The notes under the pieces are model-generated. The model searched no databases and had not been told where the DNA came from. It saw only the letters and a list, made by a program, of their open reading frames with translations. Positions 49,499 through 55,550 of a stretch of 64,000 nucleotides of DNA are shown here, in pieces. Position 1 is the first letter of the stretch. Every line of letters starts with the position of its first letter. Source of the stretch: Acidobacteriota bacterium (lineage in GTDB: Bacteria > Acidobacteriota > UBA6911 > RPQK01 > JAJDTT01); NCBI GenBank assembly GCA_028874215.1, contig JAPPLF010000108.1, positions 67,730-131,729 of the forward strand. Reading direction: 5' to 3'. The translations under genes were made by a program, and so were the position numbers.

Positions 49499-50338
49499 GT
49501 GAAGGATTTCCTGGAACGGCTGTTGGGTTTGAAGGTCCCCGAGGCCCAATTGGAGGGACCGCGAGACCCCTATAACATCTACGAATGGGATCTTGACGAC
49601 CGGAGGCCGTTGGTGGTCGCCGCCATACTGGCGATCCTCTTTCACGCCGTTCTCCTTTTGATGATCTTCCCCTCGTTCGGCAAGACGGTCCTGATCCCGA
49701 CCCAGCAGGTGCTGGTGCTCAAGAATCTGGCGAAACCCGCGGCCCTCGCCGGGGGCGGCGACCTGCCCAAGGCGACACCGCCCAAGCCCGAGCCGGTGAA
49801 ACCGAAGCCCAAGCCGATTCTGGTTCCCATTCCCGATCCGACTCCCAGAGAACCCGAACCCATCCGCAAGGAGGAACTGGAAAACGTCCCCCAGGTCATC
49901 AAGCAGATCGTAGCGGAATTGAACCTGGACGACATTGAGGCTCCGCCAGGGCGTCCCGGCCGGGGAGGGCAGGGTGAGAGCCAGGGCGAGGGCACGGGAA
50001 CCGGCCCCCTTGCCGGTTCGGGACCCGCGGCTGGAGACGGCAGCGGCATCTATCGATACGGGAGCGGAGTCACCAACCCGGTTCCCATCGTTAAAACGAC
50101 TCCCAGCTACACCGACGCCGCCATCAAAGCCAAGGTTCAGGGTGTGGTCTGGCTTCAGGCCATCATCCGGAAGGATGGCAACGTCGACAGCTTCAAGGTC
50201 ATTCGAGGATTGGGCCACGGTTTGGAGGAACAGGCCATCCAGGAGATCGCCACCAACTGGCGTTTTCGGCCCGGAATGCTCAACGGGAGCCCGGTCGACG
50301 TCCTGGCCACCATCGAAGTCCAGTTCAACCTGAGGTAG
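49499..50338 (+). CDS. TonB-family energy transducer
   Basis: This 279-residue protein starts with GTG. A cytoplasmic N-terminus of about 37 residues precedes one membrane helix (LVVAAILAILFHAVLLLMIF). A proline-rich span follows (about 92-125, KPEPVKPKPKPILVPIPDP), then a glycine-rich linker and a C-terminal TonB domain (about 200-279: TDAAIKAKVQGVVWLQAII). It should transmit membrane energy to outer-membrane receptors. No ExbB/ExbD genes or receptors are next to it. Confidence 0.9.
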   Translation: MKDFLERLLGLKVPEAQLEGPRDPYNIYEWDLDDRRPLVVAAILAILFHAVLLLMIFPSFGKTVLIPTQQVLVLKNLAKPAALAGGGDLPKATPPKPEPVKPKPKPILVPIPDPTPREPEPIRKEELENVPQVIKQIVAELNLDDIEAPPGRPGRGGQGESQGEGTGTGPLAGSGPAAGDGSGIYRYGSGVTNPVPIVKTTPSYTDAAIKAKVQGVVWLQAIIRKDGNVDSFKVIRGLGHGLEEQAIQEIATNWRFRPGMLNGSPVDVLATIEVQFNLR

Positions 50339-50429: not shown

Positions 50430-53201
50430 GTGGCTGAAGTACTCGACCTGAAAGGAACCATCAACCTTCCCAGAACCCGTTTCCGGATGAAGGCGAATCT
50501 GCCCGTTCTGGAGCCGCGGATTCTCAAGTCGTGGGAAGAGTCGGGGATCTACGCGAGAATCCGCTCGGCGCGAGAGGGAAAGCCTCTCTTCATCCTTCAC
50601 GACGGCCCTCCCTACGCCAATGGGCATCTCCACGTGGGACACGCCCTGAACAAGATCCTCAAGGACTTCATTGTCCGTTCCAAGACCATGGAGGGTTACG
50701 ATTGTCCCTACGTGCCGGGGTGGGACTGTCACGGGCTGCCCATCGAGATTCAGGTCATGAACCGAAAGCGGGCCGACCTGGAGCCGCTGGAGGTGCGCCG
50801 GCGATGCCGGCGGCACGCCGACAAGTTCGTGCGCATCCAGGGGAATGAATTCCGCCGCCTGGGGGTCACGGGGGACTGGACCGCGCCCTATCTGACCATG
50901 AGCCATTCCTATGAAGCCGAGACGGCCCGGCTGTTGGGTGATTTCGTCCGCCGGGGAAGCGTCTACAAGGGTCTCAAGCCGGTTCATTGGTGCATTCACT
51001 GCGAGACGGCATTGGCCGAAGCCGAAGTGGAGTATTCGGAACATGTCAGCCCATCGGTCTACGTCCGGTTTCCCGTGACGGGAGGACTCCATGGACTGGA
51101 CGCCGGAGCCCGCCCCGTCTCGGTGCTGATCTGGACCACGACGCCTTGGACCCTGCCCGCCAACATGGGGCTCTGCTTTCATCCCGACTTCGAATACGCG
51201 TTGGTGGAGGCCCGGGACGAGGTCTTCATCCTGGCTGCCGATCTGGTCCCCCGCGTTTCCAAGGAGTGCGATCTGGGCGACTACCGGATTCTGGGACGCC
51301 TGCGGGGCGCTGCCCTCGGCGGTCTCGAGTGCCGGCACCCATGGATACCGCGCCGGTCCGCGGTCGTATTCGGGACTCACGTCACGCTGGACCAGGGCAC
51401 CGGCGTGGTCCATACGGCACCCGGACACGGAGAAGAGGACTACCGCCTGGGGGTCGACAACGGTCTCGAAGTGTATTGTCCGGTGGACGATTCGGGCCGG
51501 TTCCTGCCGGAGGTGGATCACTTCGGTGGCATGCCCGTGTTCGAGGCCAACCCTTCCATCAACGCCCTTATGGCCCGGGAAGGCCATCTGGTCCGGGAAG
51601 AGCCGTTCCGGCACAGCTATCCTCATTGCTGGCGCTGTCACAACCCGGTCATTTTTCGCGCCACGGCGCAGTGGTTCATCAGCATGGACCGGGAAGACCT
51701 TCGCGGCCGGGCCCTGCGCGAGATCGCCAGGGTGAAGTGGCTTCCGTCCTGGGGCCGGGAGCGGATCCACAACATGATCGCCACCCGGCCGGACTGGTGT
51801 ATCAGCCGGCAGAGAACCTGGGGTGTTCCGATCATCGCCTTCTACTGCAGGGCCTGCGGCAAGATCCTTTTGGAGAGCGGCATCATCGAGCATGTTTCGC
51901 GCATCTTCGAGCGGGAGGGAGCCGACGCCTGGTACCGGAGGCCCGCGTCAGAGCTTCTTCCGAAGAACACCCGTTGCGCCTGTGGAAGCGAAGAATTCGA
52001 GAAAGAAAAAGACATATTGGATGTCTGGTTCGACTCGGGGGTCAGCCATCACGTGCTGCGGGAAACGCCGGGACTCGATTGGCCCGCGGATCTCTACCTG
52101 GAGGGTGGAGATCAGTTCCGGGGCTGGTTTCACAGTTCCTTGCTGGTCGGCGTCGGCGTCAGCGACGGAGCTCCCTACCGGTCGGTCCTGTGCCATGGAT
52201 GGACGCTGGATGCCGAGGGGAAAGCCATGTCCAAGTCCCGGGGCAACGTCATTTCTCCCCAGGACATCACCAAGCGGGACGGCGCCGAGATCTTGCGCCT
52301 CTGGGTTGCGTCCATCGACTACACCGAAGACGTCCGTCTGGGGGAAGAGATACTTTCCCGACTCCGGGACGCCTACCGCAAGCTGCGAAATACGAGCCGC
52401 TTCCTCTTGGGCAACCTTCACGACTTCTCTCCGGAAATGGCAGTGCCGGACGAGGAACTGCTGGAGTTGGATCGTTGGGCTCTGGCCCATACCGCCGCCA
52501 CGGCACGGCGGGTGGAGGAGGCCTACCGGAATTTCGAGTTTCACACCGTCTACCACTCCCTGTACCACTTCTGTGTGGTGGGGCTTTCCAGCTTTTATCT
52601 CGACGTTCTGAAGGATCGCCTCTACGTCTCGGCGGCCGATTCCACGGAACGAAGGTCGGCCCAGACGGCCCTGTTCCGGATCGCGGACGCATTGGTCCGG
52701 CTGCTGGCTCCGGTCCTGCCCTTTACCACCACCCAGATCTGGGAAGAACTCCACGGCCGGAACCCTCCCGCCGAGTCGGTCCACATGGCCGAGTTCTCCC
52801 GGGAGCTGGACCGTCATGAGGACCCCGAGCTCCTGGAGCGGTGGGAGCCGCTCCTGCGGATCCGCCACCAGGTCAGCAAGTCACTGGAGGAATGCCGCCA
52901 GCAGAAGCTCATCGGGAACTCCTTGGAGGCGTCGGTCAGGATCGAGGCCGGCGCGGAGACTTGCCGGTACCTCAGCCGGTATGCGGACGATCTGGCCACC
53001 GTCTTCATCGTCTCCGAGGTCGAGATCGGACTGAGGGAGGACCTGGCGGGGGATGAGACGCGGATCGAGGTGACCCGAACCCAGGCAAAGAAATGCGCGC
53101 GGTGCTGGAACCATCGGCGCTCGGTGGGGACCGATGCCGATCTGCCGCATGTCTGCTCCCGTTGCCGCGCGGTGCTGGAACGGATCGGTGCCCTCGATTG
53201 A
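50430..53201 (+). CDS. ileS: Isoleucyl-tRNA synthetase
   Basis: This 923-residue class I synthetase charges tRNA-Ile. The ATP-binding HIGH-type motif reads HLHVGH at about residue 66 and KMSKS reads KAMSKS at about 597. The editing domain has IWTTTPWTLPANMG. A C-terminal zinc finger (CARCWNHR and CSRC) shows it is the bacterial type with IleRS C-terminal domain. It starts with GTG. The lspA-lolA gene follows 58 nt later; ileS-lspA adjacency is common. Confidence 0.96.
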   Translation: MAEVLDLKGTINLPRTRFRMKANLPVLEPRILKSWEESGIYARIRSAREGKPLFILHDGPPYANGHLHVGHALNKILKDFIVRSKTMEGYDCPYVPGWDCHGLPIEIQVMNRKRADLEPLEVRRRCRRHADKFVRIQGNEFRRLGVTGDWTAPYLTMSHSYEAETARLLGDFVRRGSVYKGLKPVHWCIHCETALAEAEVEYSEHVSPSVYVRFPVTGGLHGLDAGARPVSVLIWTTTPWTLPANMGLCFHPDFEYALVEARDEVFILAADLVPRVSKECDLGDYRILGRLRGAALGGLECRHPWIPRRSAVVFGTHVTLDQGTGVVHTAPGHGEEDYRLGVDNGLEVYCPVDDSGRFLPEVDHFGGMPVFEANPSINALMAREGHLVREEPFRHSYPHCWRCHNPVIFRATAQWFISMDREDLRGRALREIARVKWLPSWGRERIHNMIATRPDWCISRQRTWGVPIIAFYCRACGKILLESGIIEHVSRIFEREGADAWYRRPASELLPKNTRCACGSEEFEKEKDILDVWFDSGVSHHVLRETPGLDWPADLYLEGGDQFRGWFHSSLLVGVGVSDGAPYRSVLCHGWTLDAEGKAMSKSRGNVISPQDITKRDGAEILRLWVASIDYTEDVRLGEEILSRLRDAYRKLRNTSRFLLGNLHDFSPEMAVPDEELLELDRWALAHTAATARRVEEAYRNFEFHTVYHSLYHFCVVGLSSFYLDVLKDRLYVSAADSTERRSAQTALFRIADALVRLLAPVLPFTTTQIWEELHGRNPPAESVHMAEFSRELDRHEDPELLERWEPLLRIRHQVSKSLEECRQQKLIGNSLEASVRIEAGAETCRYLSRYADDLATVFIVSEVEIGLREDLAGDETRIEVTRTQAKKCARCWNHRRSVGTDADLPHVCSRCRAVLERIGALD

Positions 53202-53259: not shown

Positions 53260-54549
53260 ATGAAACTCGTGGCGCTGGGAGTGGCGGCGACGGTGCTGGC
53301 GCTGGATCTCCTCACCAAGTGGTGGGTCAAGAGCACGCCTTGGCTGCACTACCACAAGGTGGTCGATGGATTCTTCGCCATCCACTTCGTCCGCAATGAG
53401 GGCATTGCCTTCGGCCTGTTCCATTCCAATCCGTCGGCGTGGAAACCGGTGATCCTTTCCGTCCTGGCCGTCGCGGCGGCGGTCATGGTGTTGTATTACA
53501 TCTGGACCAGCCCTCCCGAGGAAAGAGGCGTCCAACTGCTCATGGGGCTCCTGTTGGGAGGGATCCTGGGGAATTTCTGCGACCGGCTGTGGCGTGGGTA
53601 TGTCGTCGATTTTTTGGATTTTCATTGGCAGGACCGTTTCGCCTGGCCAACCTTCAATCTGGCTGATGCCGCAATCACCTGCGGAGTCGCGGTGATTCTC
53701 TACCAGGGCTTTTTCGGAGCGGGCAGCGGAGACCGGGCATCGAGCCGGCCCAGCCGGAAAAACTCCGGCTCTTTGGGCGCGTTTCTCCTGGCGGGACTGC
53801 TCTCGGCGCCCCTGTTGGGAGAATCGGCCTCTCCCGGCGCGCTGGAAATCGTGGACCGGGTCCAGGCCCGGTACGATCGGGTCGAAAGCTTCTCCGCCGA
53901 TTTCCGGCAGGTCTTCCAATCGCAGGGGGTCTTTTTCGAAAGCGACTGGGGCGAGGGGGTCCTGCTGATGAAGCGCCCTGGAAAAATGTACTGGGAGTAC
54001 CGGCGCCCCACCAGGAAGCTGTTCGTGGCCGACGGCAAGCAGACCTTCTTCTACGTCCCCGCCGAGAACCAGGTGACGATCGCCGACCTGGACCCGGAGA
54101 CTGCGGATACGCCGCTGCTTTTCCTGCTGGGACCCAAACGGATACGGGACGATTTCATGGTGGAGTTCGAAACCGGGGAAGGACCGTTGGAGGAATCCAA
54201 CCTGCTCCTGCGGTTGACGCCCGTTCAGGCCCGGCCTGAATTCAGCTATCTGCTCTTGGAACTGTCCTCCCGGACCTGGCTCATCCAGAGATTGTCCGTA
54301 ATCGAGCCCATCGGTAATCGCAACGACTACATCTTCAGCCGTTTCCGGGAGAACGTCAGGATTCGGGACAAACAGTTCCGCCTGGAGTTGCCGGATGGAG
54401 TGGAGATCATCCGAATCGGATCCGGCGCCGGCCGGAGGCCGGACGGGGAGCCGGGCCGGTTTCTTCATCGCAGCGGGATCGAGACCGCGCTGGAGTTCAC
54501 AGTCCGTGACGACTTTTGCCACGGTCGGTTAAGGAGAGTGCCGAGTTGA
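53260..54549 (+). CDS. lspA-lolA: Fused lipoprotein signal peptidase II and LolA-type lipoprotein carrier
   Basis: This single 429-residue frame combines two proteins. Residues 1-152 are LspA: four hydrophobic segments, VRNEGIAFGLF, GNFCDRLWRGYVVDFLDF and WPTFNLADAAI, with the expected catalytic aspartates D117 and D136. A basic linker (158-169, DRASSRPSRKNS) precedes a fifth hydrophobic segment (171-187) that looks like a LolA signal sequence. Residues about 194-385 are LolA-like: IVDRVQARYDRVESFSADFRQ and GKMYWEYRRPTRKLFVADG. Positive-inside topology would put LspA's C-terminus in the cytoplasm and LolA in the periplasm. The last 45 residues are unlike LolA and run through the dyad repeat. 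No ATG or ribosome-binding site suggests a separate LolA start. Confidence 0.88.
   Translation: MKLVALGVAATVLALDLLTKWWVKSTPWLHYHKVVDGFFAIHFVRNEGIAFGLFHSNPSAWKPVILSVLAVAAAVMVLYYIWTSPPEERGVQLLMGLLLGGILGNFCDRLWRGYVVDFLDFHWQDRFAWPTFNLADAAITCGVAVILYQGFFGAGSGDRASSRPSRKNSGSLGAFLLAGLLSAPLLGESASPGALEIVDRVQARYDRVESFSADFRQVFQSQGVFFESDWGEGVLLMKRPGKMYWEYRRPTRKLFVADGKQTFFYVPAENQVTIADLDPETADTPLLFLLGPKRIRDDFMVEFETGEGPLEESNLLLRLTPVQARPEFSYLLLELSSRTWLIQRLSVIEPIGNRNDYIFSRFRENVRIRDKQFRLELPDGVEIIRIGSGAGRRPDGEPGRFLHRSGIETALEFTVRDDFCHGRLRRVPS
54504..54532. repeat. Dyad element copy 2, upstream of fabH
   Basis: CCGTGAC, loop GACTTTT, GCCACGG, a three-base gap and GTTAA match the copy at 22939-22967. Here it lies inside the 3' end of lspA-lolA and directly abuts the ribosome-binding site (AAGGAG, 54531-54536) of fabH, so a hairpin could affect fabH translation. 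Confidence 0.55.
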
Positions 54550-55550
54550 GCGAAATTCGGGCGAACATAACGGCCGTGGGGATGTACGTTCCGGAGAAGC
54601 GCGTCACCAACCACGACTTGAGCCGGGTACTGGAAACTTCCGACAAGTGGATCCGAGAGCGAACCGGGATCTCGGAGCGCCGAATCGTCGGCAAGGACGA
54701 GGCGAACAGCGATCTCTCGGTTCGAGCCATCCGAGACGCTCTGGAAGGCACGCCACATCGTCCTGAAGACATCGATCTCATCATCGTCACCACCGTCACG
54801 CCGGACATGATGTTCCCTTCGACCGCTTGCCGGATCCAGGAGAAGATCGGGGCCACCAACGCGTGGGGGTTCGATCTTTCCGGGGCCTGCTCCGGATTCC
54901 TTTTCGGCCTCTCGACGGCTGCGCAGTTCATTCGGACGGGGACCCACAAGAAGGTCCTTGTGGTGGGAACCGATGTGATGAGCTCCATCATCGACTTCGA
55001 GGACCGGGCCACCTGCGTGCTCTTCGGAGACGGCGCCGGGGCGGTCCTCCTTGAGCCCACCGAAGAGGAGGATGTCGGCATCCTGGACGCGACCCTGGGA
55101 TGCGACGGGTCAGGAGGCAAGTTCCTGTACATGCCGGCCGGAGGGAGCCAACGCCCGGCAAGCCATGAAACCGTGGACAAGCGGATGCACTATGTCCATC
55201 AGGACGGGAGGAACGTCTTCAAGTTCGCGGTTCGGGTCATGTGCGACACTTCCGTCGGATTGCTCCGGCGAAACGGCATTCCCACCGATCAGCTTTCGCT
55301 GTTCGTCCCCCATCAGGCCAACATGCGAATCATCAAGTCTTCCATGTCGCGCCTGAAACTGGGCGAGGAACAGGTTGCCGTCAACATCGACCGCTACGCC
55401 AACACCACGGCGGCGACCATCCCCACCTGTCTGGCGGAAGCTCACCGGCAGGGACGACTGAAGAAACGGGACAAAGTCCTCATGGTCTCCTTCGGAGCGG
55501 GATTCACCTGGGGAGGCATCCTGCTCGGCTGGGGAATGGATCCGCCGTAA
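54546..55550 (+). CDS. fabH: 3-oxoacyl-ACP synthase III
   Basis: This 334-residue enzyme starts fatty-acid synthesis by condensing acetyl-CoA (or a branched primer) with malonyl-ACP. The catalytic triad is visible: Cys in SGACSGF, His in VPHQANMRI and Asn in YANTTAATIP. It starts with TTG at 54546 overlapping the previous stop codon; AAGGAG lies 9 nt upstream, while a start at 54516 would lie within the repeat. No other fab genes are adjacent. Confidence 0.95.
   Translation: MSEIRANITAVGMYVPEKRVTNHDLSRVLETSDKWIRERTGISERRIVGKDEANSDLSVRAIRDALEGTPHRPEDIDLIIVTTVTPDMMFPSTACRIQEKIGATNAWGFDLSGACSGFLFGLSTAAQFIRTGTHKKVLVVGTDVMSSIIDFEDRATCVLFGDGAGAVLLEPTEEEDVGILDATLGCDGSGGKFLYMPAGGSQRPASHETVDKRMHYVHQDGRNVFKFAVRVMCDTSVGLLRRNGIPTDQLSLFVPHQANMRIIKSSMSRLKLGEEQVAVNIDRYANTTAATIPTCLAEAHRQGRLKKRDKVLMVSFGAGFTWGGILLGWGMDPP

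Follow-up and report, generated by a model that had tools for sequence, protein, structure and literature searches.

Introduction

LspA (signal peptidase II) cleaves diacylated prolipoproteins and is inhibited by globomycin, and its solved structures have established that its C-terminus is cytoplasmic. In model diderm bacteria, LspA and the lipoprotein carrier LolA are each essential and act at separate steps. Outside this pathway, the FbcH cytochrome b/c1 polyprotein of Bradyrhizobium japonicum provides a case in which cleavage of a single translation product has been demonstrated experimentally. The established order of action in the lipoprotein pathway is LspA, Lnt, LolCDE, and then LolA (PMC10865981, PMC11784454), with LolA being recruited by the hook of LolC/LolF (PMC10865981). 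A bifunctional LolA that itself delivers cargo to the outer membrane has been reviewed for Caulobacter (PMC11784454).

Here, we examined a gene in a 64,000-nucleotide stretch of DNA from an uncultured Acidobacteriota bacterium (assembly GCA_028874215.1, contig JAPPLF010000108.1), hereafter the window, for which a sequence-only reading had proposed that LspA and LolA are encoded in frame as one protein. Both halves belong to known families, and the joined architecture is seemingly undescribed. We know of no description of an LspA-LolA fusion, and a literature search covering open-licence papers found none, in agreement with what that reading had stated.

Results

A single gene encodes complete LspA and LolA domains

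The fused gene, lspA::lolA, lies at 53260-54549 on the plus strand, with GGAGA approximately 9 nt 5' of its ATG. From this ATG to the TGA at 54547-54549, the frame runs without an internal stop and translates into 429 residues, and both domains score above their family cut-offs, as expected from the uninterrupted LspA-LolA frame first recognized in the sequence.

The LspA domain comprises residues 1-155 (53260-53724, +). Residues 9-152 match Pfam Peptidase_A8 (PF01252; E 4e-38, 131 bits against a cut-off of 25), the NCBIfam lspA model (TIGR00077) is matched with 113 bits against a cut-off of 74, and together the two delimit a complete LspA at residues 7-153, over the curated cut-offs. Compared with the PDB, this half had LspA structure 5dir as its best match (E 1e-9, TM-score 0.83 on the target), and the AlphaFold2 model places four membrane helices at residues 2-25, 62-83, 89-112, and 134-155. 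D117 (53608-53610, +) and D136 (53665-53667, +) are the catalytic aspartates and align with D124 and D143 of Pseudomonas aeruginosa LspA (9emz/5dir). D136 is kept in all of the fused proteins described below, and D117 in all of those covering that position. The modelled helices and aligned aspartates bear out the earlier description of a complete LspA with four membrane segments and both catalytic residues. From its family and these residues, the fused domain is predicted to possess the prolipoprotein-cleaving activity of LspA.

The LolA domain comprises residues 196-386 (53845-54417, +). Pfam LolA (PF03548) matches residues 207-375 (E 1e-25) and the NCBIfam lolA equivalog (TIGR00547) is matched with 124 bits against a cut-off of 112, which together mark a complete LolA at residues 196-384. 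The best PDB match of this half was LolA 2w7q (E 1e-15, TM-score 0.80 on the target), and the LolA fold of an open beta-barrel with a helical lid was matched in the predicted structure. Arg 239 (53974-53976, +) aligns with the Arg of the KRP motif, R43 of Escherichia coli LolA, and this motif is kept in all fused LolA domains.

Between the two domains are a hydrophilic basic linker, GSGDRASSRPSRKNSGS (residues 156-171; 53725-53772, +), and a signal-peptide-like segment, LGAFLLAGLLSAPLLGESAS (residues 172-191; 53773-53832, +). The linker is the putative n-region of an internal signal peptide, for which the segment supplies an h-region and candidate signal peptidase I sites. The AlphaFold2 model is confident for LolA and of low confidence for the linker, with a short helix at residues 172-180.

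Beyond LolA is a non-conserved tail of 43 residues (387-429; 54418-54546, +) reaching the start of fabH. It is disordered in the AlphaFold2 model, mostly missing in one close relative (G003), and absent from the fused proteins of two further families (f4 and f6), consistent with the sequence-only reading that some 45 C-terminal residues are unrelated to LolA. The upstream neighbor is ileS (50430-53201, +), identified from sequence, with relatives at 50-97% identity. The downstream neighbor is a fabH-like gene (beta-ketoacyl-ACP synthase III; 54546-55550, +), whose likely TTG start overlaps the stop of the fusion as TTGA, suggesting translational coupling. In G003, an in-frame deletion has altered the length of the region encoding the tail (54418-54549), and the stop still overlaps the likely fabH TTG.

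The fusion is conserved in three families

In the window, all three frames are open through the G+C-rich linker, and therefore, an open frame alone is weak evidence for a fusion. The same single-frame fusion was, however, found in nine genomes from three families of one order, with no stop between the domains: four from a genus of family f1 (G000-G003, G000 being the genome of the window), three from f4 (G006, G009, and G012), and two from f6 (G008 and G011). In G012, the gene is in two contig-end pieces. Fused proteins from the genus are 84-95% identical to the window protein, and those from the other families 44-51%. The linker ranges from 23 to 78 residues among the fused proteins, and its length always changes by whole codons. 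The dN/dS ratio is mostly 0.08-0.20 in both domains, signifying purifying selection, and 0.26-0.76 in the linker, which is fast-evolving yet below 1.

In G009, one 5.13-Mb contig makes up the genome and carries the fusion, and contig joining errors are thus not the explanation. All of the genomes are metagenome assemblies or similar, which might have led one to suspect an assembly or sequencing artefact, or else a recent accidental fusion in one strain. We reject this as having a negligible probability, since the same architecture recurs across nine genomes and three families at the identities given above, once within the 5.13-Mb contig, and since artefacts are expected to break frames rather than to join them repeatedly. 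Judged by comparative conservation, the LspA-LolA fusion is genuine and conserved. The sequence-only reading had proposed searching related genomes for the same architecture and considered that homologues might always be split at this point; the nine fused genomes answer the former and contradict the latter.

One further apparent fusion, in G033, was rejected, as the match runs through a TAA and the genes are split. The genes of G022 and G037 are likewise split, with stops between the domains. Among the matches listed for 396 genomes of the phylum, where a match to both domains would be expected near the top, no fusion was seen outside the order. In a scan of 84,980 species, which relies on exact matches to short peptides and is non-exhaustive, matches to both domains occurred only in Acidobacteriota.

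The fusion is the sole LspA and the sole canonical LolA

Each fused genome has the fusion as its only LspA, the two hits in G012 being two ends of one gene, and as its only strong or canonical LolA. Being the sole source of both, the fusion must perform both essential jobs. Most genomes have a second, divergent LolA-like gene, of which the G000 copy scores 44 bits against the LolA cut-off of 112. This paralogue is also present in split relatives, and it is therefore older than the fusion rather than a compensating novelty. In G000, the paralogue (contig C61, locus L160, 1179-1886, -) adjoins a gene for a LolD-like ATPase (L160, 337-1047, +), and the two may form a second Lol-like export set. 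The same locus has a gene resembling CDP-alcohol phosphatidyltransferases. In the f4 genomes, a weak match to a LolCE-like permease lies about 1 kb from the paralogue.

LolCE-like permeases were detected in 18 of 18 genomes of the order, all under the curated cut-off (the best, in G000, reaching 322 of 362 bits), and signal peptidase I in 17 of the 18. LolB was sought in these 18 genomes and not found, and LolA would thus presumably deliver its cargo to the outer membrane.

An internal segment resembles a LolA signal peptide

The C-terminus of LspA is cytoplasmic and LolA works in the periplasm; therefore, a fifth export segment is required. The sequence-only reading had likened the fifth hydrophobic segment to a LolA signal peptide, and its hydropathy indeed equals that of the signal peptides on the separate LolA proteins of relatives: the hydrophobic core is 12-15 residues long, with a 12-residue mean hydropathy of 2.0-2.4 as compared to 1.5-3.2 in the split proteins. 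In the window protein, the 15 residues before the core have a net charge of +3. A basic stretch precedes the core throughout f1, while the charge of the n-region falls to +1 in f4 and to 0 or -1 in f6. By a permissive -3/-1 rule, a cleavage site after the core was present in seven of the eight fused proteins scored, with a background of 0.06 per residue, and none was present in G006. G009 was left out of this set and reads AGG|AE and GGA|EM. The segment in the G006 model is a 20-residue helix ending within 5 residues of LolA, and in the models, some 5-10 residues separate the segment from the first helix of LolA.

Together, these features agree with the topology that the earlier reading had found coherent, in which four LspA helices and a cytoplasmic C-terminus would be followed by a fifth, signal-peptide-like crossing and a periplasmic LolA. 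The orientation of LspA is taken from known LspA biology, and from it we infer the topology of the fifth segment.

LolA appears to be made as part of the fusion

The sequence-only reading had also raised the prospect that LolA starts independently at a TTG, corresponding to 53773-53775. If LolA were also made separately from such an internal start, the fusion would be partly cosmetic. All four f1 genomes retain this TTG, which speaks for the idea, but no clear ribosome site precedes it, and the product starting there would be without a basic n-region. A search of every fused linker for a conserved in-frame ATG, GTG, or TTG with a ribosome site yielded none that is general. The start is not conserved across the families; in G012, the single candidate is a TTG that falls within the hydrophobic core, and in G008, an ATG in LspA helix 4 is followed by no further in-frame start until a TTG that is itself part of the core. 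With no usable start just before the core in these two genomes, an independent start of LolA is implausible for the group as a whole, and separate synthesis of LolA seems improbable overall. In the absence of a general internal start codon, we consider LolA to be made as part of the fusion.

Separate neighboring genes in relatives are the expected precursor

The lspA and lolA genes of two other families of the order (f2 and f5), and of most of the remaining class, are separate but lie side by side in the same orientation, usually behind ileS. Each gene of such split pairs has its own start and stop, lolA has its own signal peptide, and some pairs overlap by ATGA. In f2 and f5, fabH is 3' of the pair, as in the window; these two families and most of the class also have ileS 5' of lspA. 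This arrangement is the expected precursor state, and the split pairs of relatives thus indicate that the fusion arose from a pre-existing neighbor pair.

Beyond the class, lspA and lolA mostly occupy separate contigs. In G052, from a different class, the two genes are adjacent and unfused (contig C82, 37588-38714, with 90 bp between the matches), which means that the pairing either has a greater age or has arisen on two occasions. A TonB-like gene (49499-50338 of the window) precedes ileS in the window and directly precedes lspA::lolA in f4 and f6 (loci L125, L127, L128, and L130); from this difference, ileS has moved in or out of the locus. In G005, from family f3 of the same order (90% complete), LspA and canonical LolA are both missing, although the genome has the LolA-like paralogue; the linked pair may fall in an assembly gap.

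In an rpoB tree, a single origin for the three fused families was not rejected (p-AU 0.499), the base of the order being weakly resolved. The fused families were not one clade in the best tree, and a tree of LspA plus LolA was equally undecided. Phylogenetically, a single fusion, a fusion followed by a split, and two to three fusions would all remain compatible with these trees.

Discussion

The fusion product is probably, in our view, a polyprotein from which LolA is exported by the internal signal and then freed, most likely by signal peptidase I. The ancestral adjacent lspA and lolA would have become one gene when the stop of lspA and the start of lolA were lost in frame. LspA would insert with its four helices, leaving its C-terminus in the cytoplasm, and the former LolA signal peptide, now internal, would serve as a fifth export signal carrying LolA to the periplasm. 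A cut behind this segment, by signal peptidase I or some other envelope protease, would leave an ordinary membrane-bound LspA and an ordinary soluble LolA, synthesized at a fixed ratio of 1:1. Cleavage, the release of soluble LolA, and any benefit of the fusion would follow from this scheme. Release is favored because a tether of 5-10 residues is too short to cross the periplasm and LolB was not found. Against cleavage are the G006 protein, which is without a site by the -3/-1 rule and whose 20-residue helix would also suit a permanent anchor, and the weak n-regions of f4 and f6.

These same points lend some weight to an uncut fusion, which we regard as unlikely yet the foremost competitor. 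LolA would then be fixed to the periplasmic side of the inner membrane, next to LspA and LolCDE, where it would take up lipoproteins and pass them to another carrier, perhaps the divergent LolA-like paralogue. In the G006 model, the fifth helix leads directly into LolA; cleavage sites and n-regions are weak in f4 and f6; most genomes have the second LolA-like gene, which in G000 lies beside the LolD-like ATPase; and the fusion has been conserved over the long term though it could easily be reversed. However, LolA would sit too close to the membrane to span the periplasm, the paralogue scores well under the LolA cut-off and occurs in split relatives too, and nothing indicates transfer from one LolA to another. 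A never-cut fusion that combines trimming and chaperone loading in one inner-membrane assembly, its cargo being carried by, for example, the LolA-like paralogue, is a slightly more doubtful proposition.

It had been suggested from the sequence that a tethered or later cleaved LolA could receive lipoproteins at the processing site. Later cleavage is the part that fits better. A direct hand-off of freshly trimmed lipoproteins from LspA to a tethered LolA would have proximity alone in its favor, and we consider it very improbable, as in the known pathway Lnt and LolCDE intervene between the two steps, it is the LolC/LolF hook that recruits LolA (PMC10865981), and each of the 18 genomes has LolCE-like proteins, though below the curated cut-off.

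By either route, one conserved gene makes two essential pathway proteins as a single chain, which shows that an internal signal can serve for LolA export. The fusion thereby makes testable the question of whether LolA must be free to work. If the product is cut, an essential envelope pathway contains a natural polyprotein whose two parts are made at a fixed ratio. If it is uncut, the current view, in which LolA shuttles freely, would need a second version, and the lipoprotein pathway would have a new layout. This is also a lineage where an antibiotic hitting LspA could disturb the supply of LolA.

Among described systems, the fused LspA domain shares with the LspA family (PF01252, MEROPS A8; 5dir, 6ryo) its full length, four helices, and both catalytic aspartates, and the fused protein differs from known LspA in that its C-terminus is extended by an export signal and another protein of the pathway. 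With known LolA (TIGR00547; 2w7q, 1iwl), the fused domain shares the full-length fold, the KRP Arg, and an equivalog score over the cut-off, whereas it is without its own start codon and its signal peptide is inside a larger protein. The separate neighboring lspA and lolA genes of other families of the class have the same gene order and encode the closest relatives of both domains; they differ in that lspA ends in a stop and lolA begins with a start codon and an N-terminal signal peptide of its own. FbcH, although made of unrelated proteins, has the plan proposed here of a polytopic membrane protein, an internal signal peptide, and a periplasmic domain, with separation following export; the cleavage shown for FbcH is what we infer for LspA-LolA.
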